Source: Tateyamaria sp. syn59 (lineage in GTDB: Bacteria; Pseudomonadota; Alphaproteobacteria; Rhodobacterales; Rhodobacteraceae). From it: 64,000 nucleotides of DNA. The DNA lies in contig NZ_VCBA01000006.1 of NCBI RefSeq assembly GCF_007995245.1, forward strand, positions 248,001-312,000, read 5' to 3'. Positions 6,612-60,638 of this stretch are shown piece after piece. Positions within the stretch are counted from its first letter, which is position 1; the number at the start of each line of letters is the position of its first letter. The notes under the pieces are model-generated. The model saw only the letters and a list, made by a program, of their open reading frames with translations. It had not been told where the DNA came from and made no database searches. The position numbers were made by a program, and so were the translations under genes.

Positions 6612-6908
6612 TTATTCTTGGTGTTTCTTGTGGTGCTGAATGACTTCAGCGATGATGAAGTTCAGGAACTTCTTGGCGAATTCGGGGTCCAGATCGGCCC
6701 GGTTTGCCAAATCTTCAAGCCGAGCGATCTGCGCGGCTTCGCGCGTGGGATCGGAGGGCGGAAGGTCGTGTGTGGCCTTGAGTTTCCCCACGGCCTGCGT
6801 GTGTTTGAACCGCTCGCCCAGGGTATAGACGAGGATTGCATCGAGCCGGTCGATGCTGGCGCGGTGGTCCGCCAGCACTTCGGCGGCGCGGGTGATGGCG
6901 TCGGTCAT
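6612..6908 (-). CDS. Chorismate mutase (AroQ class)
   Basis: 98-residue, all-helical monofunctional chorismate mutase converting chorismate to prephenate for Phe/Tyr synthesis. Visible AroQ features: the N-terminal helix [19 protein letters not shown] with the conserved Arg and Asp, then [18 protein letters not shown] and a C-terminal helix with Ile/Gln ([11 protein letters not shown]). It lies between the GNAT cluster and rpsP. A periodic GTRCACC array sits 40-90 bases upstream of its start. Confidence 0.9.
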
Positions 6909-6948
6909 GGGCGTCCCTTTCCTGGGCCGAAAGGGCTGGCAAACAGAG

Positions 6949-7000
6949 TGTCACCTCCTGTGCACCATCCGTACACCCCTCGTGCACCCCCATCGTGCAA
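6949..7000 (+). repeat. 11-bp phased GTRCACC array, copy 1
   Basis: Heptamers TGTCACC (6949), GTGCACC (6960), GTACACC (6971), GTGCACC (6982) and a degenerate GTGCAAG (6995) are spaced 11, 11, 11 and 13 bp. The array lies in the 108-bp gap between the first GNAT gene and chorismate mutase, so inside an operon. On the coding (minus) strand it reads GGTGYAC-N4 repeats. Lead-in AAACAGAGTGTCACC matches copy 2. Confidence 0.75.
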
Positions 7001-7016
7001 GTGGGGTAAGGTTTCG

Positions 7017-7622
7017 TTAATCAAGTGCCCATCCTTTCGGTTTGAACATCGGGTCGGCGTAGTGGCCGATTTCCATCTCGATCCCGTGCGCCAGTTGCGT
7101 GCCATCGAGAGCTTCGGGGGACGGGTGGCGGTAGACGGCGTCGGAGCCGTCGATGGTTTGCGCCGCCTTGTCCTTGAACGCACCCAGCCGCTCGGCCAGC
7201 CGGATGCTGTCGAGGTTCATCGGGTCGAGATAGCTGACGGCCCCGTCCCATCCATTCGCGTAGTAATGCGCGCGCACGGCGTGAGTCGCTTCGAGGGCGT
7301 AGCCCTTGCCCGCCTTGTCTGGCCAGATGATCCAGGCGATTTCGCGTTCCGGCCAGCCTGCGGGCTGCCAGCCACCGGCCATGCCGTAGGTGTCGTCCGT
7401 GTCCTTGTCGTGGATCATCCACATGCCGAAGCCGCGGATGTCCCAATGCCCGATTTCGGCGGCGTAGAGCATCCACGCCTCATAAGGGTTCAGCGGGCCG
7501 CCCATGAAGCGGGAACGGTAGGAGGCGAAGGTTGCTTTGAAATTCGGGTAGTCCTCGGGCTCTGGCCCGCGCAGGACAAGGCGCTGCGTTTCGATGACGG
7601 GAATGGCGGCGTGGGACATCAC
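7017..7622 (-). CDS. GNAT N-acetyltransferase 1 of six (RimJ/RimL-like)
   Basis: 201 residues with the acetyltransferase-3 fold. An N-terminal IETQRLVLRGPEPEDY segment is followed by the acetyl-CoA pyrophosphate loop DKAGKGYALEA (near residue 105) and the NLDSIRLAERLGA strand-helix near residue 145. The substrate cannot be read from sequence; relatives acetylate protein N-termini or small amines. It is the most downstream of six tandem paralogues. Its start overlaps the stop of the preceding paralogue (ATGATG), so it is probably coupled. The alternative start is the second Met. Confidence 0.88.
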   Translation of the reverse strand: MMSHAAIPVIETQRLVLRGPEPEDYPNFKATFASYRSRFMGGPLNPYEAWMLYAAEIGHWDIRGFGMWMIHDKDTDDTYGMAGGWQPAGWPEREIAWIIWPDKAGKGYALEATHAVRAHYYANGWDGAVSYLDPMNLDSIRLAERLGAFKDKAAQTIDGSDAVYRHPSPEALDGTQLAHGIEMEIGHYADPMFKPKGWALD

Positions 7623-8182: not shown

Positions 8183-8274
8183 GGGCGCGCGCCTTTCCAA
8201 AAGGACGCGCTGCCGCGCGACGTCATATTGGCGGCGGTTGAAACGTGAGCCCGTTTGGTCGGGTGTGCAGCCTG

Positions 8275-8320: not shown

Positions 8321-8321
8321 G

Positions 8322-12985: not shown

Positions 12986-13040
12986 CACCTGCCTCCTCGC
13001 GTTATCATAGGGAGGCGCAGGGCAGACCTCGGAGGGACTG

Positions 13041-13122: not shown

Positions 13123-13245
13123 GCTGTGGTCGAGAGTACGTTGCCACGGGCGGGTGTCAAACGCATTGTGGCGCCAGGAGCAAACCCGCGCTGATGTGGA
13201 GGTGGCGCTTGTTATCCTAAGTGACGGAGCGGCGCAGAGACCGCC

Positions 13246-13644: not shown

Positions 13645-13700
13645 GGGACGTCTCCTATCTGATACGGATGGGAGCGTAAGGAGCGGTGCGCCGCCCCGAC

Positions 13701-13714
13701 CTGATCTTGATCAA
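13701..13714. promoter_or_regulatory. FnrL/DNR-type binding site
   Basis: CTGAT-CTTG-ATCAA matches the FNR consensus TTGAT-N4-ATCAA at 9 of 10 positions. It lies between the cytochrome c gene (57 bp from its start) and the DinB gene (46 bp from its start). The cytochrome is the more plausible target. Confidence 0.6.
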
Positions 13715-13759
13715 ATGCCCTGTGCTTTTTCGCGCAGCAGCCCGAGAGGGACGACCCCC

Positions 13760-14778: not shown

Positions 14779-14843
14779 GGTGCGACGCTAGCGGCAACAG
14801 GTGATCGCGGACAAGTCCGGGAACCGGGCGCTGGGGGGCGGCG

Positions 14844-14858
14844 TTAACCATTCAGTAA
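14844..14858. promoter_or_regulatory. Candidate CtrA box
   Basis: TTAA-CCATTCA-GTAA matches TTAA-N7-TTAA at 7 of 8 positions and includes the TTAACCAT half-site typical of alphaproteobacterial CtrA. It is 47 bp upstream of the TTG start of a small exported protein. Confidence 0.4.
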
Positions 14859-14904
14859 CGTTTTGAACGTTGCGCAGATGATTAAGAAAGATGAAGGATA
14901 CCCT

Positions 14905-15090
14905 TTGAAGTTTATTGTTGTGACTTTTACTGCACTGACCCTTGCCTCACCGATGTTTGCGTCGGTTCATGTGCCACAGTCCCTGTCCGCATCAGGACCC
15001 CAAGCGATTTATCACGGCGGCGGATGTCGAAAATCCTCGCCTCCCGGGCAGTGCTGCCACGCAGGCTCACAACCGTATCACTGCCACTGA
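14905..15090 (+). CDS. Small secreted Cys/His-rich protein
   Basis: 61 residues if begun at TTG 14905 (MKFIVVTFTALTLASPMFA, a clean signal peptide, with AAGGA upstream). ATG 14878 or 14863 would add a charged, non-signal N-terminus. The mature part ends GGGCRKSSPPGQCCHAGSQP followed by YHCH: four Cys and three His in about 22 residues, suggestive of a metal-binding or disulphide-bonded motif. I do not know its function. A candidate CtrA box lies upstream and a strong terminator follows. Confidence 0.6.
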   Translation: MKFIVVTFTALTLASPMFASVHVPQSLSASGPQAIYHGGGCRKSSPPGQCCHAGSQPYHCH

Positions 15091-15094
15091 AATG

Positions 15095-15130
15095 CCAAAG
15101 CCCCGGCCAGATAGTCGGGGGCTTTGCGCT
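15095..15130. terminator. Intrinsic terminator between convergent genes
   Basis: AAAGCCCC (15097-15104) pairs with GGGGCTTT (15118-15125). It lies between the small Cys-rich gene and the leftward azoreductase gene. A- and T-rich flanks make it usable in both directions. Confidence 0.8.
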
Positions 15131-15145
15131 TTCTTGGGGTTGTGA

Positions 15146-15718
15146 TTAGGCCGCGAGCTTCTCGATCTCGGCCTTGGCGTCCGCGATGGCTGCCTCGCCT
15201 TGGGCCATGACGCTGTCTGCGGCGATAACCTCGACATCGTGGATGCCGATAAAGCCCAACACATGCTTGAGGTAGCCGGTAGCGAAGTCGATGTCGCTGC
15301 CTACGGGGGTGCCGCCGGTTGCGACGGCGATGATGGCCCGTTTGCCGTCGAGCAGGCCGACGGGGCCAGTCTCGCTGTATTTGAAGGTCAGGCCTGCGCG
15401 GGCCACCAGGTCAATCCAGGCCTTGAGCGCGGCCGGAATGCCAAAATTATAGACCGGTGCGCCAATCACGATGGTGTCCGCCGCCTTCAACTCCGCGACC
15501 AGCGTGTCGGACAGGGCAAGCGTGTCGCGCTGGGCCGGGTCGCGGTCATCGGCGGGGGTGAAGTTGGCGTTGACCCAGGTCTCATTAATCTGGGGTAGGG
15601 CTTCGGCTAGGTCGCGGCGGATCACGTCGCCGCCAAGCTTGGCAACGATCTGGGCGCTCAGGTCGCGGGTCACGGAGCCTTCGGTGCGGGCGGAGCTGTC
15701 GATATGCAATATGGTCAT
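15146..15718 (-). CDS. azoR: FMN-dependent NADH-azoreductase
   Basis: Flavodoxin-fold quinone/azo reductase of 190 residues. The N-terminal phosphate loop is LHIDSSARTEGSVTRDLS; PVYNFGIPAALKAWIDLVAR (near residue 94) is the AzoR hallmark, and ATGGTPVGSDIDF follows. It probably reduces quinones and azo dyes using NADH and protects against electrophiles. It is divergent from a LysR gene with about 120 bp between, so that regulator is the likely controller. Confidence 0.93.
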   Translation of the reverse strand: MTILHIDSSARTEGSVTRDLSAQIVAKLGGDVIRRDLAEALPQINETWVNANFTPADDRDPAQRDTLALSDTLVAELKAADTIVIGAPVYNFGIPAALKAWIDLVARAGLTFKYSETGPVGLLDGKRAIIAVATGGTPVGSDIDFATGYLKHVLGFIGIHDVEVIAADSVMAQGEAAIADAKAEIEKLAA

Positions 15719-15838
15719 GGTCGGGTCCTCTCTGGGATGGCGATGTCGTCTGTCCCCAGATTTGTACCTTGCAAATTTGAACGCAATTCCTGAAACTCAA
15801 CATCATCTGTTAACATTTGCACAAAGAGCCTTTGACCG

Positions 15839-16720
15839 ATGGACAACTGGGACGAGATCAAGACCGCCTATCAGGTGGCGCGCATGGGCACGGTCAGCGG
15901 CGCGGCAGACGTGCTGGGTGTTCACCACGCCACGGTCATCCGCCACATTGATGCGCTGGAGGGGCGGTTGGGTGTGAAGCTGTTCCAGCGTCATGCCCGT
16001 GGCTATACCCCGACCGAGGCGGGCGACGATCTGTTTCGGGTTGCGCAAGCCACCGATGATCAGTTCAGCCAGCTTGTGGGCCGCATCAAGGGGCGCGGAA
16101 CGGAAGTGTCGGGCGAGTTGGTGGTGACGTCCCTCGTCAATATGGCGCCGCGCATGGCCCCGGTTCTGACCGAATTCCAGCAGCAGCATCCCGATGTGAT
16201 TGTGCGCTATCTGACAGGCGAGCGGCTGTTTCGCCTGGAATATGGCGAGGCACATGTGGCAATCCGGGCTGGCAATGCGCCGGATCAGCCGGATAATGTC
16301 GTCCAGCCTTTCGTGCGTCAGTCCATGGGGCTTTATGCAACCAAGGCCTATGTCGAAGCCCGCGGGCATCCTGAAGACATTGCAACTGCGAAAGGCCACC
16401 GTTTTGTTAGCCATGACGCTGCCGACAATCGCGCGCCGTTTCACAAGTGGCTGCGCAGTCAGGTGAAGGAAGACGACATCACCTTCCGATCAACCGACGT
16501 CCGCGCGTTGGAACAGGCGGTTCTGGCCGGTGCCGGGATCGGCTTTCTGTCGGTGCTGGAGGCGCGCGCCAATCCCAATCTGGTTGAGATCACGACCCCG
16601 CGCGAGGACTGGTCGGCGCCATTGTGGCTGGTGACCCATGTGGATCTGCATCGCACCAATAAGGTGCAGGCTTTTCTGACCTTCCTCAAAGAAAAGTCCA
16701 AGGACTGGCACGTTCTGTGA
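15839..16720 (+). CDS. LysR family regulator, divergent from azoR
   Basis: 293 residues with an N-terminal winged helix-turn-helix (TVSGAADVLGVHHATVIRHI, then LEGRLGVKLFQRHARGYTPT) and a C-terminal effector-binding region beginning near residue 92 (SGELVVTSLVNMAPRMAPVL). The first residues NWDEIKTAYQVARMGTVS are typical of the group that regulates neighbouring oxidoreductases. The stop overlaps the GTG start of the EamA permease (GTGA), so the two are probably co-transcribed. Confidence 0.9.
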   Translation: MDNWDEIKTAYQVARMGTVSGAADVLGVHHATVIRHIDALEGRLGVKLFQRHARGYTPTEAGDDLFRVAQATDDQFSQLVGRIKGRGTEVSGELVVTSLVNMAPRMAPVLTEFQQQHPDVIVRYLTGERLFRLEYGEAHVAIRAGNAPDQPDNVVQPFVRQSMGLYATKAYVEARGHPEDIATAKGHRFVSHDAADNRAPFHKWLRSQVKEDDITFRSTDVRALEQAVLAGAGIGFLSVLEARANPNLVEITTPREDWSAPLWLVTHVDLHRTNKVQAFLTFLKEKSKDWHVL

Positions 16721-17598
16721 CGCCAGCCTTGCGCGGCCATGCGGCGATGCTGTTGTTCTCTGCCCTCGTGGCCGGGTCGTTTTCGCTTGGGTCCATGGCC
16801 GCGAACGAGATTGCGCCCGCCGCGCTGAACGCGGCGCGCTTCTGGATTGCTGCGGCGGTGATCGGGATCGCGGTTGTTGCGCGCGGTGGTGTGCCTGCGC
16901 AGGCGCTGAATGCTCCGTGGCGGTATGCCGTGCTCGGCGGTCTCTTTGCCGTCTACTTTGTGCTGATGTTCGAGGGCCTGAAGACCGCGGCCCCTGTCAG
17001 TGCGGCGGCGGTCTTTACCCTGACCCCTGTCATGTCCGGGGTGTTCGGTTATGTCCTGCTACGCCAGATTACGACCCCACGCATGGCGCTGGCCCTCGCC
17101 GTGGGTGCCACGGGCGCCTTGTGGGTGATCTTTCGCGCGGACCTGTCCGCTTTTCTTGCGTTCGAGGTGGGGCGCGGCGAAGTCATTTATTTCTTCGGCT
17201 GCGTGAGCCATGCGATCTACACCCCGATGGTACGCAAGCTGAACCGGGGTGAGCCCGCGGTGGTCTTTACCTTCGGCATGCTGGTTGCGGGCGCGGTGTT
17301 GCTGAGCCTGTGGGGCTGGCGCGATCTGCTAGCAACGCCTTGGGCTGATCTGCCGGGTATCGTGTGGGTGACGCTGATTTATGTGGCGCTTTTTGCCTCT
17401 GCCGCGACCTTTGTACTGTTGCAGTTTGCCACCCTGCGCCTGCCGTCGGCCAAGGTCATGGCCTATACCTATCTGACCCCAAGCTGGGTGATCCTGTGGG
17501 AGGTGGCGCTAGGCAACGGCGTGCCGCCCGGCATTGTCTGGGTCGGCGTTGGCCTGACGGTGGTCGCGCTATCGCTGCTGTTGCGGGATGAGGGTTAG
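16717..17598 (+). CDS. EamA/DMT superfamily transporter
   Basis: 293 residues with about ten hydrophobic helices in two EamA repeats (residues 5-135 and 150-288). Each repeat has the usual pattern of small residues, for example FALKTAAPVSAAAVFTLTPV near 85-105 and YLTPSWVILWEVALGNG near 248. Such proteins export amino acids, metabolites or toxic compounds, but the substrate is not readable. GTG start overlapping the LysR stop. Confidence 0.88.
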   Translation: MTPALRGHAAMLLFSALVAGSFSLGSMAANEIAPAALNAARFWIAAAVIGIAVVARGGVPAQALNAPWRYAVLGGLFAVYFVLMFEGLKTAAPVSAAAVFTLTPVMSGVFGYVLLRQITTPRMALALAVGATGALWVIFRADLSAFLAFEVGRGEVIYFFGCVSHAIYTPMVRKLNRGEPAVVFTFGMLVAGAVLLSLWGWRDLLATPWADLPGIVWVTLIYVALFASAATFVLLQFATLRLPSAKVMAYTYLTPSWVILWEVALGNGVPPGIVWVGVGLTVVALSLLLRDEG

Positions 17599-17638
17599 AT
17601 GACATGATCCTGTTACACTCATCGGCGCAGATAGTTTC

Positions 17639-18478
17639 ATGAATATCGAAATGAAAGTGTCGGTCACGGTAGACCGGTCCGAGACGTTGCTGGCACCCGT
17701 GGGATTGAGCACACCTGCGGCCACCTGTCTGGGCGTGGAGGTTGACGGGGCCGATGTCGCCCGTGTGACTTGCGCCGCCTTACGGCAGGACGCTCTGATC
17801 CTTACCCCGCGGGCGGAACGCGTCATGTTGCACTACGGTTTCGACACGGGCCACACGCCGTATCCTGACGCGATGTTTGCGCCGCATGACAGCCGTTTCA
17901 CCCGTGCGCATCCCGACCTTGCCGCAGAGGCGCAGAAGATCGTGTCGGACGGCGGGGTGGAGGCGATGGTCGCGCATGTCACGTCGATGTTCGACTACGG
18001 CCACACCGATGATCGGTTCTATGACACCGCAGATGCCATGCCGCAGTTGTGCGACATGACCACGGGCTCTTGCGTCGACATCAATGCCTATCTGGTGGCG
18101 GGCCTGCGCGCGGTGGGGGTCGAGGCGGGTTATGTCGCGGGATACTTCATTCCAGAAGGGCGCCGGGATCACACAACCGACATGCACTGCTGGGTCGCCA
18201 CGCGAGAGGGCGAGCGGGTGCGTCATTGGGACATCGCACACCACCTGAAGATGGGACGGCGTGACATTCGGGCTGTGTTGAACCCCAAGCTTGGTGTGCG
18301 TGTGGCGATGTCGCATTCGATGGGATGGACGCTGCCTGGTGTGCCGTTCGCGGACTTCAAACTGCTGTGCGAACCGGTTTGGTTCAACGATGCGGTCTGG
18401 GATCAGGCCGACTGTACATTCACGCTTGCAGGCTATGACGCGCTGGATGCGGCGCAAAATGCGCTTGCTCACGCCTGA
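17639..18478 (+). CDS. Transglutaminase-like cysteine peptidase-fold protein
   Basis: 279 residues. A catalytic triad can be proposed: Cys in GSCVDINAYLVAGLRAVGVE (near residue 142), His in DMHCWVATREG (near 184) and Asp in HWDIAHH (near 197). The N-terminal 85 residues carry a beta-rich domain typical of bacterial transglutaminase-domain proteins. No signal peptide, so cytoplasmic. The target is unknown. Convergent with, and overlapping by 10 bases, the ArsR gene. Confidence 0.83.
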   Translation: MNIEMKVSVTVDRSETLLAPVGLSTPAATCLGVEVDGADVARVTCAALRQDALILTPRAERVMLHYGFDTGHTPYPDAMFAPHDSRFTRAHPDLAAEAQKIVSDGGVEAMVAHVTSMFDYGHTDDRFYDTADAMPQLCDMTTGSCVDINAYLVAGLRAVGVEAGYVAGYFIPEGRRDHTTDMHCWVATREGERVRHWDIAHHLKMGRRDIRAVLNPKLGVRVAMSHSMGWTLPGVPFADFKLLCEPVWFNDAVWDQADCTFTLAGYDALDAAQNALAHA

Positions 18479-18801
18479 CGGTCGGGCAGTTCTTTTTCGA
18501 GGAACCGCTCGAACGCGTCTAGGTTCACAGGCTCGAACTGACCAAACCCCTGCATCCAGACAGAGGCGCCGCGCATCGCGTCGGGGTCCAACTTGCACCA
18601 CTTCACGCGGCCCCGCTTTTCCTGCTGGATCAGTCCGGCGCGGGTGAGGATGGTCAGGTGCTTTGAGATCGCGGCCAGCGACATCTCGAACGGTTCCGCC
18701 ACGTCGGTGACAGCCATGTCATCCTCAAGCAGCATCGTCAGGATCGCCCGCCGGGTCGGATCGGCGAGGGCGGAGAAGATGGTGTCGAGCGGATCGGCCA
18801 T
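18469..18801 (-). CDS. ArsR family winged-helix regulator
   Basis: 110 residues: IFSALADPTRRAILTMLLED and the recognition helix EMSLAAISKHLTILTRAGLI followed by the wing QQEKRGRVKWCKL. There is no conserved CxC metal motif, so this resembles the non-metal subgroup often paired with START-domain (SRPBCC) proteins; no such partner is adjacent here. Confidence 0.9.
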   Translation of the reverse strand: MADPLDTIFSALADPTRRAILTMLLEDDMAVTDVAEPFEMSLAAISKHLTILTRAGLIQQEKRGRVKWCKLDPDAMRGASVWMQGFGQFEPVNLDAFERFLEKELPDRQA

Positions 18802-18839
18802 GGCCCGTCATAGCGAGCGGGCGGTCCGAGGGGAAGCGA

Positions 18840-19061
18840 TCAGAGGTAAGGGTGCCTGTTCTCTGCTGACGGCCAGCGGTGTTTCATTTGTGCGCGTTGA
18901 GATGGGGTGAGGCCGATGTCACGCGCAATGTGGTCGGTCATAGGGGGCAGGGTGGTGCCCTTGGATGTCTTTGTTTTTCTGTTGGCGCGCAGGAATTTTG
19001 CACAAGTAGAGAGGGCGCGCAAAAGCGCGTTGGAGCGTGCCATTTGCATGAGTTGCCTCAT
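18840..19061 (-). CDS. Small DUF1127-like protein
   Basis: 73 residues starting MRQLMQMARSNALLRALSTC. The C-terminal part (MTDHIARDIGLTPSQ) matches the DUF1127 core, in which a short helical segment ends in a D-IG-(L/T)-R-like motif. DUF1127 proteins in alphaproteobacteria act in phosphate/stress responses and small-RNA turnover; the role of this one is unknown. It is divergent from the LysR gene at 19156. Confidence 0.65.
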   Translation of the reverse strand: MRQLMQMARSNALLRALSTCAKFLRANRKTKTSKGTTLPPMTDHIARDIGLTPSQRAQMKHRWPSAENRHPYL

Positions 19062-19155
19062 TTTGCAGGGGTATGAGGGGAATATGGGCGTGTTAGCCTG
19101 AAGGGACAAACAGAGTTCCTTGACATGACTTGTGCGTTTTCTGCACGATTGGCCC

Positions 19156-20058
19156 ATGTCGCGCACCTTGCCACCCCTCAATGCCCTGCGCGCTTTCGAA
19201 GCGGCGGCCCGGCATGAGAGCTTTACCCGGGCCGCTGAAGAGTTGGGTGTGAGCCACTCCGCCATCAGCCGTCACGTACGCGGGCTTGAGGCGCGGCTGG
19301 GTGTGCAGCTTTTTCGCGATGCGTCGCGCGGTGTGGCGCTTTCGGCTGAGGGCAGCCACTACCTTCAGCGGATCGCACCTGCCTTTGATGTCATCAGCGA
19401 CGCGACCGAGGGGTTGGCCGATACGCCAGCAGGCCGGGTTGTGGTCAACAGTGAACCCCTTTTTGCGAACAAGGTGATCGCGCCCTTGCTGCGCAAGTTC
19501 CAGCAGGAGCTACCCGAGATTGAGTTGCGCCTGATTGCCTCTGATCAACTCGCCAATCTGGATCGGTTCGAGGCCGATATGGCCATCCGTTTTGCGCATA
19601 AAGGCACGCTTGATGTGCCGTCTGACCTTATGAGCGATGCCAAATTGTATCCCTTTGCGGCGCCGGGCCTTGTTCCGGGTGATTGCATACGTCCCGAGCA
19701 TCTTGGCCAGTTCCACCTGTTTCGGGACAGGCACGAGCTTGTCTGGTCGAAATGGTGCACGCTCGCAGGCTTTGATCCAGCGCTGGCCAATGAGGGGGAG
19801 TGGCGCGCCCGCTTGCCGCTGGCGTTCGAGGCGGCTGTGTACGGCGCCGGGCTGTACATGGGGTCGGCCGATTGTGTGCGGGTTGAGGTTGATGCGGGGC
19901 GACTTGTTCGGTTGTCCGATGTCGGGTTCCGCATGGGGTCCTTTCATTTGCTGACCGGTGGGCAAACCGCGCGGCGTAAGGCGGTCCGGACGGTGCGCAC
20001 CTGGTTGCTGGATCACACGCGCTGCTTCCGCAGTAGAGAAAATCAACCAGATGGTTGA
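19156..20058 (+). CDS. LysR family regulator (GcvA-like)
   Basis: 300 residues from ATG 19156 (MSRTLPPLNALRAFEAAARH, the GcvA/AmpR-type opening). Helix-turn-helix RAAEELGVSHSAISRHVRGL, then ARLGVQLFRDASRGVALSAE. The effector domain has GRVVVNSEPLFANKVIAPLL and DMAIRFAHKGT. No obvious divergent target besides the DUF1127 gene. The C-terminus ends within the atp upstream region. Confidence 0.9.
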   Translation: MSRTLPPLNALRAFEAAARHESFTRAAEELGVSHSAISRHVRGLEARLGVQLFRDASRGVALSAEGSHYLQRIAPAFDVISDATEGLADTPAGRVVVNSEPLFANKVIAPLLRKFQQELPEIELRLIASDQLANLDRFEADMAIRFAHKGTLDVPSDLMSDAKLYPFAAPGLVPGDCIRPEHLGQFHLFRDRHELVWSKWCTLAGFDPALANEGEWRARLPLAFEAAVYGAGLYMGSADCVRVEVDAGRLVRLSDVGFRMGSFHLLTGGQTARRKAVRTVRTWLLDHTRCFRSRENQPDG

Positions 20059-20184
20059 ACATGCCTTCTGGGTGCGATTGGTCTCAAGCGGACGGTGCGA
20101 CGCAATGGCACTTGCCTTCATTGTTCCAAAAAATATTTATAAAAACAAATGGTTGAGGTCACTACGCGTCGTAGTATGTGCGCG

Positions 20185-20213
20185 TTGACTCATACCCCGC
20201 CCCGACATATCCA
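20185..20213 (+). promoter_or_regulatory. Candidate sigma-70 promoter of the F0 operon
   Basis: TTGACT, then 17 bases, then TATCCA, ending 32 bp before the atpI GTG start. A perfect 6-bp inverted repeat (ACTACG-CGT-CGTAGT) lies just upstream at 20161-20175 and could be an operator. It is the only good match in the 187-bp gap before atpI. Confidence 0.5.
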
Positions 20214-20245
20214 ACCTTCGAACCAAATGACGGGATGAAAGGCGC

Positions 20246-20581
20246 GTGACCGACCCCGAAGACGCAGATCGACTGAAGGCCCTGAGCGCCAAGATCGACG
20301 CGGTCAAGGAAGAGCACGCCCCGAAACCCCGCACACCGGATCCTCACTCTCAGGCGCAACTGGCCTGGCGCATGGTGGTCGAACTGGTGGCCGGTATAGG
20401 GATCGGCTTTGGCATGGGATACGGGCTGGACGCGCTGTTCGGCACCACGCCGTTTCTCATGATCATATTTGTGTTTCTGGGCCTCGCGGCCGGCATCCAG
20501 ACGATGATGCGCAGCGCGAAAGAGGTTCAGAGCATGCGGGAGGCCGAAGAGGCCGATGAAGGCGACGCCCCGCGGGGCTAG
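20246..20581 (+). CDS. atpI: ATP synthase accessory protein AtpI
   Basis: 111 residues from a GTG. The N-terminus is charged and helical (RLKALSAKIDAVKEEHAPKP). Two membrane spans follow (MVVELVAGIGIGFGMGYGLD and FLMIIFVFLGLAAGIQTMMR), with the glycine pattern of AtpI. AtpI assists assembly of the c-ring and Mg2+ supply. First gene of the F0 operon; atpB follows after 15 bases. Confidence 0.92.
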   Translation: MTDPEDADRLKALSAKIDAVKEEHAPKPRTPDPHSQAQLAWRMVVELVAGIGIGFGMGYGLDALFGTTPFLMIIFVFLGLAAGIQTMMRSAKEVQSMREAEEADEGDAPRG

Positions 20582-20596
20582 GACGGAGAGAGCCGA

Positions 20597-21346
20597 ATGG
20601 CAGACGAAGCAACAAGTGGTGGTGGGCTGTCCTTCAAGCCTATGGATCAGTTCGAGGTCAAAGCGCTGTTCGGCGGTGATATCGGGATGTTCACAATCAC
20701 CAATGTGACGCTTTGGTTGGCGCTGGCCGTCCTGGCGGTCATTGGTCTGCTGGTCCTGACCACATCCAAGCGCGAGACGGTGCCGGGCCGTGGCCAGTCC
20801 ATTGCGGAGCTGATGTACGGCTTTGTTTACAAGATGGTCGAGGATGTGACCGGCAAGGACGGGATCAAATACTTCCCCTACATCATGACGCTGTTCATGT
20901 TCATCCTCTGCGCCAACTTCCTCGGTCTGATCCCGATGTCGTTCACCACGACCTCGCACATCGCGGTCACCGCTGTTCTGGGCTTTGGTGTGTTCATCGC
21001 CGTGACAGTCCTCGGCTTCGTCAAGAACGGCGCCTCTTTCCTGAGCCTGTTTTGGGTGTCGAGCGCGCCGTTGCCGCTCCGCCCGATCTTGGCAATCATC
21101 GAGGTGATTTCGTATTTCGTCCGCCCCGTCAGCCATTCCATTCGTCTGGCAGGCAACATGATGGCGGGGCACGCCGTTTTGAAAGTGTTCGCTGGCTTTG
21201 CCCAGGTGGCGGTGATCGCCCCGGTGGCCATCGTTGGCGTCATGGCGATCTACGGGCTCGAAGTGCTGGTGTCGGCCATCCAGGCCTACGTCTTCACGAT
21301 CCTCACATGCGTGTACCTCAAGGACGCGCTGCATCCGCATCACTAA
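20597..21346 (+). CDS. atpB: ATP synthase F0 subunit a
   Basis: 249-residue proton-channel subunit. The essential Arg is in [20 protein letters not shown] near residue 180, and the C-terminal helix [20 protein letters not shown] contains the conserved Gln. [14 protein letters not shown] at residues 20-35 and [15 protein letters not shown] are also typical. Followed by a palindromic element and then atpE. Confidence 0.96.
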
Positions 21347-21351
21347 TGTTT

Positions 21352-21374
21352 GGTGGGCAGACTGCCCACCCTAC
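21352..21374 (+). repeat. Short palindromic element (hairpin plus CTAC), copy 1
   Basis: GGTGGGCA-GAC-TGCCCACC followed by CTAC: 8-bp perfect arms with a 3-base loop, in the 57-bp gap between atpB and atpE. The same architecture (8-bp arms, 3-base loop, trailing CTAC) recurs at 60689-60711 with different arm sequence. In the transcript it would form a hairpin just ahead of atpE. Confidence 0.65.
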
Positions 21375-21403
21375 GCAAACTTCCAATCGTAAGGAGAATT
21401 CTC

Positions 21404-21628
21404 ATGGAAGGTGAACTCGCACACATCGGCGCAGGCCTGGCAGCAATCGGTTCCGGCGCAGCCGCAATCGGTGTGGGCCACGTGGCTGGCAACTTCCTCG
21501 CCGGCGCCCTGCGCAACCCTTCGGCCGCTGCTGGCCAAACTGCTACCCTGTTCATCGGCATCGCCTTTGCAGAAGCCCTGGGGATCTTCTCGTTCCTCGT
21601 CGCTCTGCTGCTGATGTTCGCCGTCTAA
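21404..21628 (+). CDS. atpE: ATP synthase F0 subunit c
   Basis: 74 residues, two membrane helices. The polar loop is [13 protein letters not shown], and the proton-binding carboxylate is the Glu in [13 protein letters not shown], as in alphaproteobacteria. Start at ATG 21404 with AAGGAG upstream; an in-frame upstream Met at 21350 falls within the palindrome and is unlikely. The gene is flanked on both sides by hairpins, which fits the need for about ten c subunits per complex (inference). Confidence 0.96.
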
Positions 21629-21654
21629 GCTTCTCTGGCGATATTCCTTACGGT

Positions 21655-21683
21655 CGGGCGGCGTGATACGGTCACGCTGCCCG
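21655..21683 (+). promoter_or_regulatory. Intercistronic hairpin after atpE
   Basis: CGGGC-G-GCGTGA / TCACGC-T-GCCCG with a 5-base loop, no T-run after it. Probably a processing or mRNA-stabilising hairpin that separates atpE from the b' gene, not a terminator. Confidence 0.5.
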
Positions 21684-21740
21684 ATGTAACGGCTCGCACT
21701 TCGGCCCTGTGCGCAGGGCGAACTCAAGGGAACGACCGAC

Positions 21741-22277
21741 ATGGCAGAAAACACAAACGCTGCAGGCGAAGTGGCAGCAGGCGCGCCTCCGGGGATGCCG
21801 CAGCTGAACCCTGATTACTTTGCCAACCAGATCTTCTGGCTGATCGTCACGCTGCTGGTGATCTATTTCGTGCTGTCGCGCGTGGCCCTGCCGCGGATCG
21901 CAGCCATCCTTGCCGAACGGCAAGGCACAATCACAAATGACATCGCCGCGGCCGAGGACCTCAAGGCCAAGGCGGAGGCGGCGGAAGCGGCCTATGAGAA
22001 GGCGCTGGCCGATGCCCGCGCTGAAGCGCAACGCATTGCCGGTGAGACCAAGGCAGCCATTCAGGCCGACCTCGACGTCGCCATCGAAAAGGCGGATGCC
22101 GAGATTGCGGCCAAGGCTGCCGAGAGCGAAAAGGCCATCGCCGAAATTCGCGCCGGTGCCCAGGATGCCGTCAAAGAGGTGGCGAAGGACGCCGCGCATG
22201 ACATCGTCGCTCTGATGGGTGGCAAGGCTGACGAAAAGGCGATAACTGCTGCCGTCAACGACCGGATGAAAGGATAA
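21741..22277 (+). CDS. atpG: ATP synthase F0 subunit b'
   Basis: 178 residues. One membrane helix ([20 protein letters not shown] near residues 33-55), then a long alanine/glutamate-rich coiled coil ([20 protein letters not shown] onward) that forms the peripheral stalk. The Ala/Gly/Pro-rich N-terminus ([18 protein letters not shown]) is typical of b' in photosynthetic alphaproteobacteria, which pair b with b'. Also named atpF' or atpX. Confidence 0.93.
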
Positions 22278-22280
22278 GTC

Positions 22281-22856
22281 ATGCGTTTTCTGACCCTTAC
22301 GCCCCTGTCCGTTCTGGTAGCCGGCCCCGCGCTTGCTGCATCGAAGAACCCGTTTTCGGCGGAGTTCTGGAAGCTGAGCAACACGGATCTGATCGTTCTG
22401 ATCGCGTTCATTCTGTTCATCGGAGTCCTGTTCTACTTCAGGGTGCCTGGCATGATCGGGAAGATGCTGGACGACCGCGCGAGCGGCATCCAGTCCGAGA
22501 TCGACGAAGCCCGCGCCCTGCGGGAAGAAGCCCAAACCCTGTTGGCCTCTTACGAGCGCAAGCAGAAGGAAGTTCAGGCGCAGGCGGACAAGATCGTCGA
22601 ACAGGCCAAGAAGGACGCGGAAGCCGCTGCCGATCAGGCCCGTGCCGATCTGAAGAGATCGATCGAGCGTCGCATGGCTGCCGCCACCGACCAGATCGCG
22701 TCGGCTGAAGCGAGCGCTGTGAAAGAGGTGCGCGACACCGCCGCAGTGGTTGCTGTGCAAGCTGCGCGCGATGTGATTGCCAAGCAGATGACGGCCACCG
22801 ACAGCAACAAGCTGATCGATGACGCCATCGCCGAGGTGGACGCGCGGCTGCACTAA
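22281..22856 (+). CDS. atpF: ATP synthase F0 subunit b
   Basis: 191 residues. A short hydrophobic N-terminus (LTPLSVLVAGPALAA), a membrane helix (DLIVLIAFILFIGVLFYF), then about 130 residues of coiled coil (ALREEAQTLLASYERKQKEV). Partner of b' in the stator stalk. It follows b' by 3 bases and ends the operon; F1 genes are not in this window, as usual for Rhodobacterales. Confidence 0.94.
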   Translation: MRFLTLTPLSVLVAGPALAASKNPFSAEFWKLSNTDLIVLIAFILFIGVLFYFRVPGMIGKMLDDRASGIQSEIDEARALREEAQTLLASYERKQKEVQAQADKIVEQAKKDAEAAADQARADLKRSIERRMAAATDQIASAEASAVKEVRDTAAVVAVQAARDVIAKQMTATDSNKLIDDAIAEVDARLH

Positions 22857-22883
22857 GCCTTTGTCCCCACTCGGAAATTATTG

Positions 22884-22907
22884 AACCCCGGCCACCGCGC
22901 CGGGGTT
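22884..22907 (+). terminator. Intrinsic terminator of the F0 operon
   Basis: AACCCCGG / CCGGGGTT with an 8-base loop, followed by CTTCG. It lies 28 bp after the atpF stop. Confidence 0.85.
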
Positions 22908-23025
22908 CTTCGTATGTGAACCTTTTGTGAAGTTTTGCGTGGGCTTGCCATGGATCAAATGAGGTGACCGCGGCAGTCGCTAGGCGTTGGGAAAGGCACT
23001 GTTTCCCAGCCCAGCGAGGTTCTCA

Positions 23026-23841
23026 ATGTTCGACGCCCAGACGACCAAAGACACGCCCGCCTTTGCCCATCGCCGCAACAGCCCACCCATCATGACGGTG
23101 CGCAATCTGTCGCTGCACTACGGTGAAAAGCAGGCTTTGGACGATGTCAGTTTTGATCTTTATGCCAACGAAATCCTCGCCTTCATTGGCCCGTCCGGCT
23201 GCGGGAAATCCACCGCCCTGAAATGCCTGAACCGCATGCATGATGACACGCGGGATGTGCGGATCAGCGGAACGATCCTGATGGAGGGCGAGGATATCAA
23301 TGGCCCGGATGTCGACCCGCCACTTCATCGCCGTCGCTTTGGCTGGGTCGCGCAGAAGCCCAACCCGTTTCCCACGTCGATCTACGAAAACGTGGCCTAC
23401 GCGGCGCGGCTGCATGGTCTGACGCCAAACGGAAAGGCGCTGAAAGAGCATGTGGAACAATGCCTTACCCGTGCTGGGCTGTGGGAAGAGGTGAGAGAGC
23501 ACCTGTACAGGAAACCGGGGACCGACCTGTCGGGTGGGCAGCAGCAACGGCTGTGTATTGCCCGCGCGCTGGCGACGCAGCCTGATGTGCTTTTGATGGA
23601 CGAGCCAACGGGATCCATCGACCCGATTGCTACCGCCCGCATCGAAGACCTGCTGCTGGAACTGAAGCAGGATCAGGCCATTGTCATCATCACGCATTCC
23701 ATGGCGCAAGCGCGGCGGATTGCGGATCGGGTCGCCTATTTCCACCTTGGCAAATTGCTGGAAGTGCAGCCGACTGAAGCAATGTTCACCGCGCCTGCAA
23801 CAAGCGAAGCCCGTGCCTTTATCGAAGGCAAGATGGGGTGA
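23026..23841 (+). CDS. Orphan PstB-like phosphate ABC transporter ATPase
   Basis: 271 residues: Walker A GPSGCGKSTALKCLNRMHDD, Q-loop region GWVAQKPNPFPTSIYENVAY (the PNPFP-S-IY-NVA pattern is PstB-specific), signature LSGGQQQRLCIARALA, Walker B VLLMDEPT and H-loop ITHS. The D-loop reads GSIDPIAT where PstB usually has SALDPIAT. No pstS, pstC, pstA or phoU is adjacent, so it either serves permeases encoded elsewhere or has a different partner. ATG 23026 follows GCGAGG. Confidence 0.85.
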   Translation: MFDAQTTKDTPAFAHRRNSPPIMTVRNLSLHYGEKQALDDVSFDLYANEILAFIGPSGCGKSTALKCLNRMHDDTRDVRISGTILMEGEDINGPDVDPPLHRRRFGWVAQKPNPFPTSIYENVAYAARLHGLTPNGKALKEHVEQCLTRAGLWEEVREHLYRKPGTDLSGGQQQRLCIARALATQPDVLLMDEPTGSIDPIATARIEDLLLELKQDQAIVIITHSMAQARRIADRVAYFHLGKLLEVQPTEAMFTAPATSEARAFIEGKMG

Positions 23842-24609
23842 TCAGGCCGATGTTTCGTGGTCGAGGCGCTGGCGGGCGATCTCTTCATTGTGCTCGGCCT
23901 TTTGCTGGTCGCGCAGGGCCCGTTCGACATAGTCGAGATGGGCGTGGACGGCAGCGCGGGCTGTGTCGGGGTCGCGGACTTGCAGGGCCTCGTTGATCTG
24001 CCGGTGTTGGTCCAGAAGGGCCTGCCGGGTGGTGCGCTGTTTGAACATGACCTGCCGATTGTAGAACACACCATCTCGGAGCAGTTGATACATCGACCGC
24101 ATCATGTGGAGCATGATGACGTTGTGGCTGGCCTCGATGATCGCCATGTGGAACTGCGCGTCGAGCTGGGCTTCTTCCTCGCCATTGCGCTTGGGGTGGG
24201 CGGCTTCCATCTTTTCGAAGACCTTTTGCACGACGGCCAGATCGGTGTCTGAGGCGAGGCGCGCGGCGCGTTCGGCGGCGAGCCCCTCCATGTCGCGTCG
24301 GAAGCTGAGATAGTCAAACACAGCCTCGTCATGGCGGGCGAAAAGTTCAGTCAAAGCAGGAGCAAAGGCGGAGCCGAGGACGTCGGCCACGTAGACCCCG
24401 GCGCCCGGTTTGGCGACCAACAGCCCGGTCTCTTGCAGGGTGCCGATGGCGTCGCGGAGGGAGGGCCGGGAGACGCCCATGCGCTCGGCGAGGTCGCGTT
24501 CGGGGGGCAGCCGTTCGCCGGGGCGTAGGATGCCGCGCAGGATCAATTGTTCGATCTGGCGGATCACGGCGGCGGACAGTTTGTCGGGCTGGACGGGGCG
24601 AAAGGGCAT
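23842..24609 (-). CDS. GntR/FadR-subfamily transcriptional regulator (PdhR/LldR-like)
   Basis: 255 residues. Winged helix LRPGERLPPERDLAERMGVS followed by SRPSLRDAIGTLQETGLL, and a C-terminal FCD helical domain with the usual metal/ligand His in DAQFHMAIIEASHN near residue 150 and HAHLDYVERAL near 225. Ligands of the family are typically pyruvate, lactate, glycolate or other carboxylates; which applies here is unknown. No target gene is adjacent. A palindromic TGGT/ACCA site lies just upstream and may be its own operator. Confidence 0.88.
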   Translation of the reverse strand: MPFRPVQPDKLSAAVIRQIEQLILRGILRPGERLPPERDLAERMGVSRPSLRDAIGTLQETGLLVAKPGAGVYVADVLGSAFAPALTELFARHDEAVFDYLSFRRDMEGLAAERAARLASDTDLAVVQKVFEKMEAAHPKRNGEEEAQLDAQFHMAIIEASHNVIMLHMMRSMYQLLRDGVFYNRQVMFKQRTTRQALLDQHRQINEALQVRDPDTARAAVHAHLDYVERALRDQQKAEHNEEIARQRLDHETSA

Positions 24610-24623
24610 GGTCTCTCCGGTCG

Positions 24624-24648
24624 AATTGGTAAAATCATATGACCAGTT
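24624..24648. promoter_or_regulatory. Candidate FCD-regulator operator
   Basis: AATTGGT-(11 bases)-ACCAGTT: TGGT and ACCA arms in opposite orientation, the half-sites used by many PdhR/GlcC/LldR proteins. The spacing is wider than their usual 3 bases. The centre also holds the palindrome TCATATGA. It starts 15 bp from the regulator start, which suits autoregulation. Confidence 0.4.
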
Positions 24649-24734
24649 GAGCGGTGGTGCAATCGGAGAGCGGGTGCGGTGAGTCGGCGCGTGCGTTTAC
24701 CTTGTTTTCATGGAGATTGACGTCGAAAACAGGG

Positions 24735-24775
24735 TGTCACCCCCCTGTGCACCCGTCGTGCACCCCCTGTACACC
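24735..24775 (+). repeat. 11-bp phased GTRCACC array, copy 2
   Basis: TGTCACC (24735), GTGCACC (24747), GTGCACC (24758) and GTACACC (24769), spaced 12, 11 and 11 bp. The lead-in AAACAGGGTGTCACC matches copy 1 nearly exactly. A 10-bp imperfect inverted repeat (CCTTGTTTTC / GAAAACAGGG) precedes it at 24702-24735, and GGTTAACGC follows at 24797. It lies between the FadR-type regulator and a divergent lipoprotein gene. Confidence 0.75.
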
Positions 24776-24823
24776 CCCAACGGACGCCGAGGCGGAGGTT
24801 AACGCAACGCGCGGTGGGGTCTG

Positions 24824-24838
24824 TTCATTAGTTGTTAA
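24824..24838. promoter_or_regulatory. Candidate CtrA box
   Basis: TTCA-TTAGTTG-TTAA matches TTAA-N7-TTAA at 7 of 8 positions, and the right half continues as TTAACC. It ends 24 bp before the lipoprotein ATG, where it would overlap the promoter or the early transcript. Confidence 0.35.
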
Positions 24839-24862
24839 CCAAGCGTGGGCTTTGCTGCTGAC

Positions 24863-25267
24863 ATGCGCTTTGTTCTCTTTGCCTGCCTTGCTCTTGCCGC
24901 CTGCAACACCGCGGGCCCGCATTTTCGCGGTTTGCCAGCCACCACGGTCACGGTTGACGGATCGACATTTGACGTGCGCGTCAACGGACGACTGGCGGAG
25001 GCGCTGCGGACGAACATGCAGTACGCACCGCGATTTGGTCCGATCAAGGCGCGTGCGGCCAAAGCTATGGAGATCGTCAGCGGATGCAAGGTGAAGGAGG
25101 TGCGTGGGGATCAGGCGCTGGCGACCGGTATTCTGGATTGTGGCAAGGGTGGTCCGCCCATCGACCGGCAGGTGCCGCAAGGGGAATACAGTTGTTACAC
25201 GCTCGACAGCTATGTCAGCCCGGCCACGGATGAGCTGGTGCTGGCCGTGGATTGCGATGTGATCTGA
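24863..25267 (+). CDS. Putative lipoprotein of unknown function
   Basis: 134 residues from ATG 24863: MRFVLFACLALAACNTAGPH is a lipoprotein signal with lipobox LAAC. The mature part carries TTVTVDGSTFDVRVNGRLAE and, toward the end, four Cys (GCKVKEV, LDCGKGG, EYSCYTL, AVDCDVI) that could form two disulphides. I do not recognise the family. Upstream there is a periodic array and a CtrA-like box. Confidence 0.75.
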   Translation: MRFVLFACLALAACNTAGPHFRGLPATTVTVDGSTFDVRVNGRLAEALRTNMQYAPRFGPIKARAAKAMEIVSGCKVKEVRGDQALATGILDCGKGGPPIDRQVPQGEYSCYTLDSYVSPATDELVLAVDCDVI

Positions 25268-25392
25268 GAGCGCTGCCCGCAATATCTTGTGGATAAACCC
25301 GCCCAAATCGCAGTTTGTGGGGGCGTGGCGTTGACAGCTTTGCCCATGGCCGTCCACCATGCCAGCCCAACCAGACTCACTTTGGGGGCCGC

Positions 25393-28300
25393 GTGCGCTT
25401 TTCCAAACTTCGACTGACCGGCTTCAAATCCTTTGTCGATCCGACCGACCTGATCATCGCGGACGGTCTGACCGGCGTGGTCGGCCCGAATGGTTGCGGC
25501 AAGTCGAACCTCCTGGAAGCGCTGCGCTGGGTGATGGGTGAGAACCGCCCCACGGCGATGCGCGGCGGGGGTATGGAGGATGTGATCTTTGCCGGCGCAT
25601 CCACCCGGCCCGCGCGCAACTTTGCCGAGGTCAGCCTGCATATCGACAACTCGGAGCGGCTGGCGCCTGCAGGGTTCAACGATCAGGACGCGCTGGAGAT
25701 CGTGCGACGCATTACGCGGGATGTGGGCAGCGCCTACAAGACCAATGGCAAGGATGTGCGGGCGCGCGATGTGCAGATGCTGTTTGCCGATGCGTCCACG
25801 GGCGCGCATTCGCCTGCGCTGGTGCGGCAGGGGCAGATTGCGGAGTTGATCAACGCCAAGCCGAAGAACCGTCGCCGGATTCTTGAGGAAGCGGCGGGGA
25901 TTTCCGGCCTGTATCAGCGGCGGCACGAGGCCGAGTTGAAGCTGAAGGGGGCCGAGCAGAACCTGGCGCGCGTCGATGATGTGATTGAGCAGTTGGCGGC
26001 GCAGTTGAACCAGTTGGCCCGGCAGGCCCGGCAGGCGGCGCGCTATCGCGAGATTGGCGACGCCCTGCGCAAGGCTGAGGGGCAGTTGCTGTATCGACGC
26101 TGGCGCGAGGCGGATGATGCGCGGGCTGCGGCGGATGAGGAGCTGCGTGCGCGGACCACTGCGGCGGCGCAGGCAGAAGGCGCTGTGCAGGTGTCGGCGA
26201 AGGCACGAGTGACGGCCGAGGATGCCTTGCCCCCGTTGCGCGAGGAGGATGCGATTGCCGCTGCCGTCTTGCAGCGTTTGGCGGTGCAGCGTGATACCCT
26301 GGCCGATCAGGAGGCGCAGGCGGAGCAGGCCATTGAGCGGTTGACCGGTCGGATTGCGCAGTTGGCGCGGGACATCGAGCGCGAGGGTGGGCTGAACAAG
26401 GACGCGGGTGAGACGATCGAGCGTCTGGAATGGGAAGCCGCCGAGATTGCCAAGGCCAGTGAAGGCCATGAGGGGCTGCTGGCTGAGGCGGCAGAGGCGG
26501 CGCGCGAGGCGGGCCAGGTTTTGCAAGCGCGCGAGGGCGATCAATCGGACAAGACCGAGGATGTGGCGCGTCTGGCGGCGCGGCATGGGTCGGCGCAGCG
26601 TTTGCTGGAGGACAGCCGGAAGGTTGAGGCGAAGTCGGAGGCTGAGGCAGAGAAGGCGCGGGCGGCTGTGGCGACGAGCCGCGCGGCGCTCGACAAGGCG
26701 GGGGTGGATTTTGAAGCGGCTGAGGCGGCGTCGGCTGAGGCTGAGGCGACGGCCAAACGGGCCGATGCGGCGCTGATCGCGGCGGAGGATGCGCGGGCCG
26801 AGACGCAGTCGCGTGAGGCCGATGCCCGCGCCGAACGCTCGGAGGCTGAGGGCGAGATGAATGCTCTGCGTGCCGAGGCCGGAGCGCTGGCCAAGCTGGT
26901 GGAGCGGGATACGGCGGAGGGCGGTCAGATCCTCGACCGGTTGCAGGTGCAGCAGGGGTTTGAGAAGGCGCTTGGGGCGGCTTTGGCCGATGACTTGCGG
27001 GCGCCGCAGGTTGAGGCGGATGGTCCATCGGGCTGGGCGGTTTTGCCTGCCTACGATGTGGATCAGCCGTTGCCCGAGGGTGTGACGGCGCTGACCCAGC
27101 ACGTGTCGATGCCGGAAGTGTTGCAGCGCCGGATGTCGCAGATTGGCCTCGTCGATGCAGATGACGCGGCGCGGTTGCAGCCGCTGTTGAAGCCCGGTCA
27201 GCGGTTAGTGTCGCAGGAAGGCGATGTGTGGCGTTGGGACGGGTTTCGCGCGTGGGCGGAGGATGCGCCGAGTGCGGCGGCCTTGCGTTTGCAGCAGTTG
27301 AACCGGTTGGAGGAGTTGAAACAGTCGCTGGAGCGGGCCACGTCCCGTGCGGATGGTGCGCGGCAGGCGCATGAGGCGTTGACTGCTCGCATGGCTGAGT
27401 TGACCGAGGCTGATAAGATGGCGCGCCATGCGCGGCGTGAGGCAGACCGGATGGTCGCGGATGCAGGGCGAGCGCTGAGCCGGGCGGAGGCGGATCGCAA
27501 TCTGGCTGAGGGGCGGTTGGAGTCCCTTGGTTTGGCCGTGACCCGGCACGAAGAGGATGCGATGGCGGCGCGGGTGCGGGTGTCGGAGGCCGAGACGGCC
27601 TTGGCCGATTTGCCCGATCTGGAGGCCGCGCGGGCGGAGGTTGAGGACCTGCGCATGACCGTTGAGGCGGCGCGCATTACCATGATGTCGCGTCGGTCGG
27701 CCCATGACGATCTGCGCCGCACGGGTGAGGCCCGCGTGAAGCGCGCGCAGGAAATCACCAAAGAGGTAAGCGGCTGGAAGCACCGGCTTGAGACGGCGGA
27801 GCGCCGGACGGCCGAGCTGATTGATCGCAAGGTGACGTCAGAGGCCGAGTTGAAGGAAGCGCAGGCGGCGCCGGGTGAGTTGGCGGCCAAGCGCGAGGCC
27901 TTGAGTGACGAGATTGCGCGGGCTGAGAGCCGTAAGGCCGAAGCCGCTAATGCGTTGTCCGAGGGCGAGGGCAAGTTGCGCGATGCGACGCTCGCCGAGC
28001 GTGAGGCGGAGCGCCTGGCCTCCGAGGCGCGTGAGGCGCGGGCCCGATCCGAGGCGCGGTCGGAGGCGGCGCGCGAGACGGTTGCCTATGCCGCAGAGCG
28101 GATTGCCGAAGAGCAGCAGATGACGCCGAACCAGTTGCTGACGGCTCTGGATGTTGTGCCGGATCAGATGCCGGGGGCGGAGGCGTTGGAGACCGAAGTG
28201 GGGCGGTTGAAGCGGCAGCGCGATGCTTTGGGGGCCGTCAACCTGCGGGCTGAGGAAGACGCCAAGGAGGTGCAGGAGGAGCATGACACGCTGGTGGGCG

Positions 28301-60510: not shown

Positions 60511-60561
60511 ATGCAACAGCCGTGCACAATGCGTGCACCACACGTACACCGGTTGTGCACC
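60511..60561 (+). repeat. 11-bp phased GTRCACC array, copy 3
   Basis: ATGCAAC (60511), GTGCACA (60522), GTGCACC (60533), GTACACC (60544) and GTGCACC (60555), every one spaced exactly 11 bp. GTTAACGC flanks it at 60480 (31 bp left) and 60571 (10 bp right). Same orientation as copies 1 and 2 and, like them, upstream of a leftward gene. Confidence 0.75.
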
Positions 60562-60638
60562 GAAGCGCGGGTTAACGCGGCGTGCGGTGGTGAAGGTTAA
60601 GGGTGGGTCAACGGGGTTTTCGGGGGGGCAGATATGAA

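Follow-up and report, generated by a model that had tools for sequence, protein, structure and literature searches.

The DNA that we analysed, a stretch of 64,000 nucleotides from Tateyamaria sp. syn59 (the window), holds three short arrays of GTRCACC-like heptamers repeated every 11 bp, and our best reading, which we hold with some confidence, is that such arrays are docking sites for a putative reader, an orphan member of the BrnA family of antitoxins (PF14384), whose fold we take to be ribbon-helix-helix. In the mechanism that we propose, one dimer would occupy each 11-bp unit, the core of which, GTGCAC, is a palindrome; neighbouring dimers would touch on one face of the helix, and three to five units would nucleate a short filament, a step derived from the architecture of the arrays and from known ribbon-helix-helix proteins. 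The palindromic core every 11 bp fits a row of ribbon-helix-helix dimers because such a row needs that layout. In most of the array-bearing genomes examined, one array lies a short way upstream of the gene for this protein, in the same strand orientation, and would probably serve autoregulation; the other arrays, some 20-60 in the rich genomes, would act mainly as chromosomal docking sites in the manner of MatP and matS; we see in them docking sites rather than one operator per promoter since they lie in gaps of every kind. The arrays sit in small intergenic elements that come and go, and they would decay some time after the loss of the protein gene. According to the available text of PMC5016525, ribbon-helix-helix partition proteins form rows of dimers on short direct or inverted repeats and repress their own operons.

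Arrays in the window and their taxonomic spread

All three arrays lie on the + strand and between genes, and an earlier note on this DNA had located them and their steps correctly. Array 1 (6949..6988, +) begins with a TGTCACC lead unit at 6949, followed at 11-bp steps by GTGCACC (6960), GTACACC (6971) and GTGCACC (6982), and a weak fifth unit, GTGCAAG (6995-7001, +), is reached by the only 13-bp step. Array 2 (24735..24775, +) starts with the same lead unit at 24735 and continues, after the only 12-bp step, with GTGCACC at 24747 and 24758 and GTACACC at 24769, at 11-bp steps. In array 3 (60511..60561, +), where all steps are of 11 bp, a weak first unit, ATGCAAC (60511), precedes GTGCACA (60522), GTGCACC (60533), GTACACC (60544) and GTGCACC (60555). 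The lead-in AAACAGRGTGTCACC is common to sites 1 and 2, and the flanks GTTAACGC to sites 2 and 3, as the same note had it. The first gene to the left of array 1 encodes a type II chorismate mutase (6612..6908, -, PF01817) and is followed by rpsP; site 2 is a divergent gap, with the leftward gene of a GntR/FCD regulator on one side and, on the other, a rightward lipoprotein-like gene (read from the sequence, and without a Pfam match) and then smc; the neighbour of site 3 is a LysE-type translocator.

The three arrays are real and far above the level of chance. With up to two mismatches, the two-unit pattern gives 11 matches in the window against 1.37 expected, a number that none of 100 shuffles of the window reaches. 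In the whole genome (4.57 Mb), exact pairs give 14 matches against 1 in the reversed control, and three units with up to three mismatches give 54 against 2; grouped by hand, these 54 matches fall into 25 places, of which the one at window position 3205 is probably due to chance. The prediction that there would be many arrays per genome is thus supported, with about 25 in the window's own genome. Across the 292 genomes of the order Rhodobacterales, an exact pair occurs in 42, with counts of 1 to 127, and the eight genomes with a single pair may reflect chance since the reversed control gives one match each in 12 of the 292. The Nioella genome G220 holds 76 triple matches with up to one mismatch (57 places when grouped by hand) and its control none, and eight further genome handles, two of which are the same genomes as G306 and G308, hold 8-44 triple matches with up to two mismatches, again with controls of 0. 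Array counts vary with the pattern, be it exact pairs, three units with mismatches or GTRCACM triples, and the array classes A (GTGCACC) and B (GTGCACA) were separated by eye. Among the unit pairs counted, 238 are spaced by 11 bp, none by 10 and 3 by 12, a result that is partly by construction as the loci were picked with an 11-bp pattern.

A scan of the genomes of 84,980 species returned at least 118 stretches, and among the matches listed 112 belong, by record title, to genera that we assign to the Rhodobacteraceae; single stretches are found in Cupriavidus, Planctomyces, Streptomyces, Bradyrhizobium, Clostridia and Prevotella records. Among these matches, the array family is almost confined to the Rhodobacteraceae.

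Dispersed elements that carry the arrays

In the genus of the window, the array is the core of a dispersed intergenic element of about 110-150 bp. The class A element around array 2 spans 24678..24816 (+), as delimited by BLAST and by alignment with relatives of the genus. Its left arm (24678..24722, +) reads GGTGAGTCG ... TTTACCTTGTTTTCATGGAGATTGACG, and its right arm (24797..24816, +), GGTTAACGCAACGCGCGGTG, is an imperfect inverted repeat of the left end when the two are compared by eye; the right arm of element 3 (60570..60589, +) is GGTTAACGCGGCGTGCGGTG. In a BLAST comparison of window 6001-26000 with 13 genomes of the genus, 24678..24816 or parts of it gave dispersed matches at about 75-86% identity, rising to 92-93% over a 59-bp core. 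An alignment anchored on the array was possible for 18 of the 20 dispersed places retrieved and gave the order left arm with TTTACCTTGTTTTCATGGAGATTGACG, array and right arm GGTTAACGCAACGTGCGGTG; one of the 18, found in G302 through site 1, is without these arms.

The conservation at orthologous gaps to which the earlier note had looked is partial, the array-bearing element being kept in some relatives of the genus and cleanly missing in others. At site 1, the inserted segment with the array (6910..7019, +, edges approximate), which lies between the start of the chorismate mutase gene (-) and the stop of the next leftward gene, is present in five of nine relatives (G300, G302, G306, G308 and G310) and absent in four (G301, G303, G305 and G169), where the two genes almost touch. 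At site 2, the element is present in 7 of the 11 relatives aligned and cleanly absent in the other 4, and the array that G302 carries at each of the two sites is spelled differently. Since the elements are either present or cleanly absent between species, they spread or get lost. The first unit is GTGCAGC in 9 of the 11 readable copies of G301, G303 and G310, against 1 of the 11 copies aligned from other genomes, and the same spelling precedes the BrnA-family gene of G303 and G310, which would mean that the array sites drift together within a lineage. In the case of Roseovarius G292, whose chromosome is a single contig, alignment was possible for 37 of the 38 copies and shows a nearly invariant stretch of about 50 bp, made up of AAAACAGGGGGGTGAYATCC and three units, between flanks that have diverged in all but a GTTAAC motif, the distance of which varies. 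The core is thus conserved while the outer parts drift.

Two neighbouring stretches may be recorded here: several class A elements in relatives (L284-L300) are followed on the right by a recurrent stretch, GGGGGCTCTGCCCCC ... CCCCCGGGATATTTTTGGCC..AGAAGAAG, and in Nioella some arrays (L103, L119, L192, L195 and L202) are followed by a palindromic REP-like stretch, GGTTTCGCCGCGC...GCGCGTCGA.

The earlier note had argued for cooperative protein binding rather than a mobile element; the binding is our best reading, and a candidate protein has been found, but the dispersed elements and their clean empty sites go against the second half of the claim. Could the arrays then be parts of MITE- or ERIC-like mobile elements, in which they would be what is recognised during mobilisation, or simply the protein-binding segment of a selfish repeat, with the protein restraining or serving the element and the strand bias described below being an insertion bias at replication forks? 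We consider this possible, though unlikely. The elements are short and dispersed, share their ends and are present or absent at orthologous sites, which is how a MITE is recognised; a repeat of about 140 bp with similar arms and imperfect terminal inverted repeats (by eye) recurs in many places of the genus, whereas Roseovarius keeps only the core of about 50 bp between diverged flanks. The empty sites are clean at two loci, but the orthologous-gap alignments of sites 1 and 2 yield no clear target duplication, and a look by eye at the neighbours of the arrays revealed no transposase or parent transposon. Copy number is very uneven between sister species, yet some gaps carry arrays in several genera, and the class A element of the window, the only class compared, finds no match in 72,556 plasmid records. 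Mobility of this kind is compatible with docking by a BrnA-family protein and may be how the sites spread.

Among dispersed repeats already described, ERIC and REP are intergenic and uneven between relatives, as are the arrays here; to our knowledge, they lack a tandem binding array paired with the gene of a cognate protein that itself carries such an array. The BrickBuilt MITE of Porphyromonas gingivalis is presented in the available text of PMC4596501 as intergenic and present in 19 copies in one strain, its tandem repeats being framed by a leader and a tail. Our elements resemble it as intergenic miniature elements with tandem repeats and differ in that its repeats are of 23 bp without spacers and in that the same portion of the text mentions no cognate protein for it (PMC4596501). 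A search of Rfam gave no match to the array elements (the whole window was searched, and site 2 alone by E-value).

A BrnA-family gene linked to the arrays

The pairing of the arrays with a BrnA-family protein is likely, and we advance it with good confidence because three kinds of evidence concur: a linked gene, its co-occurrence with the arrays and their joint absence. The search for a reader was not made by name. The 262 distinct neighbour proteins (at least 60 residues) of 142 arrays were clustered, and at four distinct loci, belonging to Nioella, Leisingera and Roseovarius, a BrnA-family gene appeared downstream of an array, with Pfam E-values of 1.2e-13 to 3e-12 for PF14384. Searching the same 292 genomes with a profile built from three of these proteins gave a match in 135. 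All 20 genomes with at least five exact array pairs have a match (with in-frame stops in G000, G137 and G200), against 115 of the other 272; the proportions are 26/27 against 109/265 for at least three pairs, and 33/42 against 102/250 for any pair. This co-occurrence is in part a matter of shared ancestry. Within the Jannaschia group (g37) of eight genomes, the four with pairs have a match at E<1e-14, and the four without pairs have only one at E>1e-7 or none.

The linkage itself was followed in two sets. In the order-wide search, an array on the same strand stands just upstream of the BrnA-family gene at 15 of the 30 best loci (the strand relation in G080 being taken from coordinates), and array pairs occur in 14 of the 15 genomes with such an upstream array and in 3 of the 15 that lack it (Fisher p 1e-4), a comparison in which the upstream array itself contributes at most two pairs per genome, as judged from the sequences. 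The second set comprises 19 handles, that is 17 distinct genomes, mostly chosen for having arrays, and so bears on linkage and not on co-occurrence: 15 handles have a match, and the upstream array is found at 14 of these 15 loci, or in 12 of 13 distinct genomes, Paracoccus included, when G296/G308 and G297/G306, which have identical coordinates, are each counted once. The exception is G301, whose match has two stops. Coordinates alone place upstream arrays also before the gene of G047 and two further genes of G220. The distance from these arrays to the first Met of the gene is mostly about 60-190 bp, so in most loci no toxin gene fits between the two. In 25 listed loci inspected by eye, what lies downstream differs from locus to locus and includes no gene resembling a motor gene, and the divergent upstream neighbour is recurrently prfC-like (6 loci) or GntR-like (6 loci). 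The start codon is uncertain in L375 and L377 because the open frame runs back through the array. A structure model of the candidate protein is uninformative (pLDDT 42), and profile searches of the PDB gave chance-level matches only. In Leisingera sp. ANG1 (L132), the BrnA-family gene has a TGA near its start where ANG-M7 (L167) has a sense codon, so the ANG1 gene must start further on or is damaged.

Within the genus of the window, the absence of the gene and that of the arrays appear, from the genome sequences, to go together. No match to the BrnA-family profile was found in G230, G304 and G307; G230 has no array at three mismatches, and none occurs in the 400 kb examined from each of G304 and G307, about 5 being expected in the two together at the array density of G302 (P about 0.005). 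G169 has a single match, which is weak and has two stops, and none of its triples has fewer than two mismatches. The sole match in the window's own genome, 112 kb to the left of the window, holds an in-frame stop, and G259 has an open frame of the gene beside the same neighbour as this stopped copy; the window arrays may therefore be relics, since the only gene copy detected is interrupted. Arrays likewise persist despite in-frame stops in the match in G302 (29 arrays), G301, G137, G200 and G295, so the loss of the gene does not remove the arrays at once; in G295, the gene (L374) can start beyond its stop. There are exceptions to the pairing. Nine of the 42 genomes with at least one pair lack a profile match (G192 with 4 pairs, the others with 1-2), arrays without a profile match occur in G298 and G299, and G216, G065 and G137 have arrays of which none precedes their match; conversely, the 102 genomes counted above have a match without any pair.

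How does such a pairing compare with known systems? The candidate shares its Pfam domain, PF14384, with BrnA, the antitoxin of BrnT/BrnA, but in most loci the array stands too close to the gene for a toxin gene to fit in, and dozens of sites lie elsewhere. The matS sites bound by MatP are single, unlike the tandem 11-bp arrays that a candidate protein of the BrnA family would read here. ParR/parC of R1 has 11-bp iterons; in contrast to plasmid centromeres, no partner motor gene was noticed by eye at our loci and there are many sites per chromosome, and sequence matches to plasmid-centromere proteins are weak and below cut-off (PrgO, E 3e-4 and 21/100 bits; ParG chain 1p94, E 0.69). The likeness to the ParR/parC, ParG and omega centromeres lies in the tandem repeats upstream of the protein's own gene, those proteins also acting as repressors in the available text of PMC5016525. 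MatP of E. coli is, in the portion of PMC12756933 available, a ribbon-helix-helix protein with more than 20 chromosomal matS sites; the presumed fold of PF14384 and the many chromosomal sites are like it, but matS sites lie in the terminus region (PMC12756933) and the arrays all round three chromosomes. Among the matches listed by a literature search with little reach into subscription papers, none names these arrays; all the ingredients have known counterparts, but the combination itself was not encountered there.

Gap context, strand and chromosomal position

That the arrays stand upstream of a leftward gene, as the earlier note had observed in the window, proved to be a local coincidence. 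In a first count of 117 arrays, which includes a few loci outside the family and was reached from 142 after removal of 18 arrays at the edge of a locus and 7 placed 'inside' a gene by the gene caller, the neighbours are ++ in 33 cases, -- in 34, convergent in 26 and divergent in 24. In a second, overlapping set, for which 9 of 118 loci were left out (six not of the Rhodobacteraceae by title, three too short) and which provided 110 arrays for the skew test and 92 for the context, 50 gaps are tandem, 21 convergent and 21 divergent, where the shares of gap length are 53%, 16% and 31%. The gene calls come from a simple codon-usage script, and some genes are mis-called, for instance window 6588-7640. 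Arrays thus occur in gaps of every kind, in convergent as often as in divergent ones, and are therefore not promoter-bound.

These figures bear on a reading in which the same protein would be an ordinary global regulator and each array an operator for the adjacent gene. An array does stand before the protein's own gene, and the chorismate mutase gap holds an array in Paracoccus (L109), Leisingera (L156) and Tateyamaria (L158 and L189), as do gaps beside genes that we take to be gltD-, MTAP- and BKACE-like in several genera; yet divergent gaps are not favoured, convergent gaps are as frequent, and no common function is evident by eye among the neighbours. Such a regulon is in our view doubtful.

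The strand of the arrays follows replication in most of the genera sampled, the bias that the earlier note thought would favour a chromosome-organising site, but it fails in Paracoccus. With the array cut out, the GC skew is positive on the array strand in 85 of the 110 loci, mostly 8 kb long, and in 88 after correction for gene direction (p about 1e-10, uncorrected for relatedness); for 28 of the 38 arrays of G292 the 20-kb skew has the sign expected from the array strand, and the window itself has a positive skew throughout, with its three arrays on the + strand. In 16 genome handles, there are exactly two perfect parS sites (TGTTTCACGTGAAACA) each, about 1.9 kb apart. Once the parS pair is used to place the origin, ten genomes show 71 of their 93 listed arrays pointing the same way as fork movement (21/29 in G302, 25/38 in G292, with small numbers in the remaining genomes), a tally made by hand from the listed places, often part of a genome's arrays, and excluding G080, G195, G060 and G295, which have no listed array on the origin contig. 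Paracoccus G293 (7/23) and G043 (0/2) are counter-examples and bring the total to 78/118 over twelve genomes. No clear difference in array density between origin and terminus was found in three chromosomes (Kolmogorov-Smirnov p 0.18, 0.05 and 0.97).

The leading-strand bias of these skew and parS counts would also suit polar signposts read by SMC or, like KOPS, by a DNA translocase such as FtsK. We judge this very unlikely: even rich genomes hold only some 20-60 sites, the polarity is incomplete and opposite or absent in Paracoccus, and the density has no clear rise towards the terminus in the three chromosomes. Operators of the OmpR/PhoB type are built from 7-bp half sites separated by 4 bp, the Streptomyces PhoP boxes being an example. 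Operator arrays of a response regulator of that family, which would share the 7+4 geometry and a similar heptamer (GTTCACC), are most improbable, given the equal numbers of convergent and divergent gaps and a linked gene of the BrnA family.

To return to docking by a BrnA-family protein, the pairing may have a part in chromosome organisation or in gene control. We tentatively suggest, as a proposal with rather little chance of holding in full, a chromosome-organising system of the Rhodobacteraceae in which a toxin-free ribbon-helix-helix protein of an antitoxin family would form polar filaments on dozens of arrays, spread by miniature elements and mostly co-directional with replication, the protein and the arrays being jointly missing in some species. 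The protein, its own promoter and dozens of chromosomal sites would make a small testable system in abundant marine bacteria, for which sister species with and without it would be natural experiments on the role of such sites, and it would be a case of an antitoxin-family protein turned into a genome-wide DNA-binding factor.

Some further features of the window may be mentioned. Beside the chorismate mutase gene and the gene at 10397-11896, window 7619-10400 holds a row of similar genes, presumably acetyltransferase-like. Rfam matches an ffh sRNA at 11977-12028 (-) and a TPP riboswitch at 13032-13129 (-). Finally, window 8270-8321 is a different repeat of about 52 bp, with 94-96% identity to other places in the relative G300.
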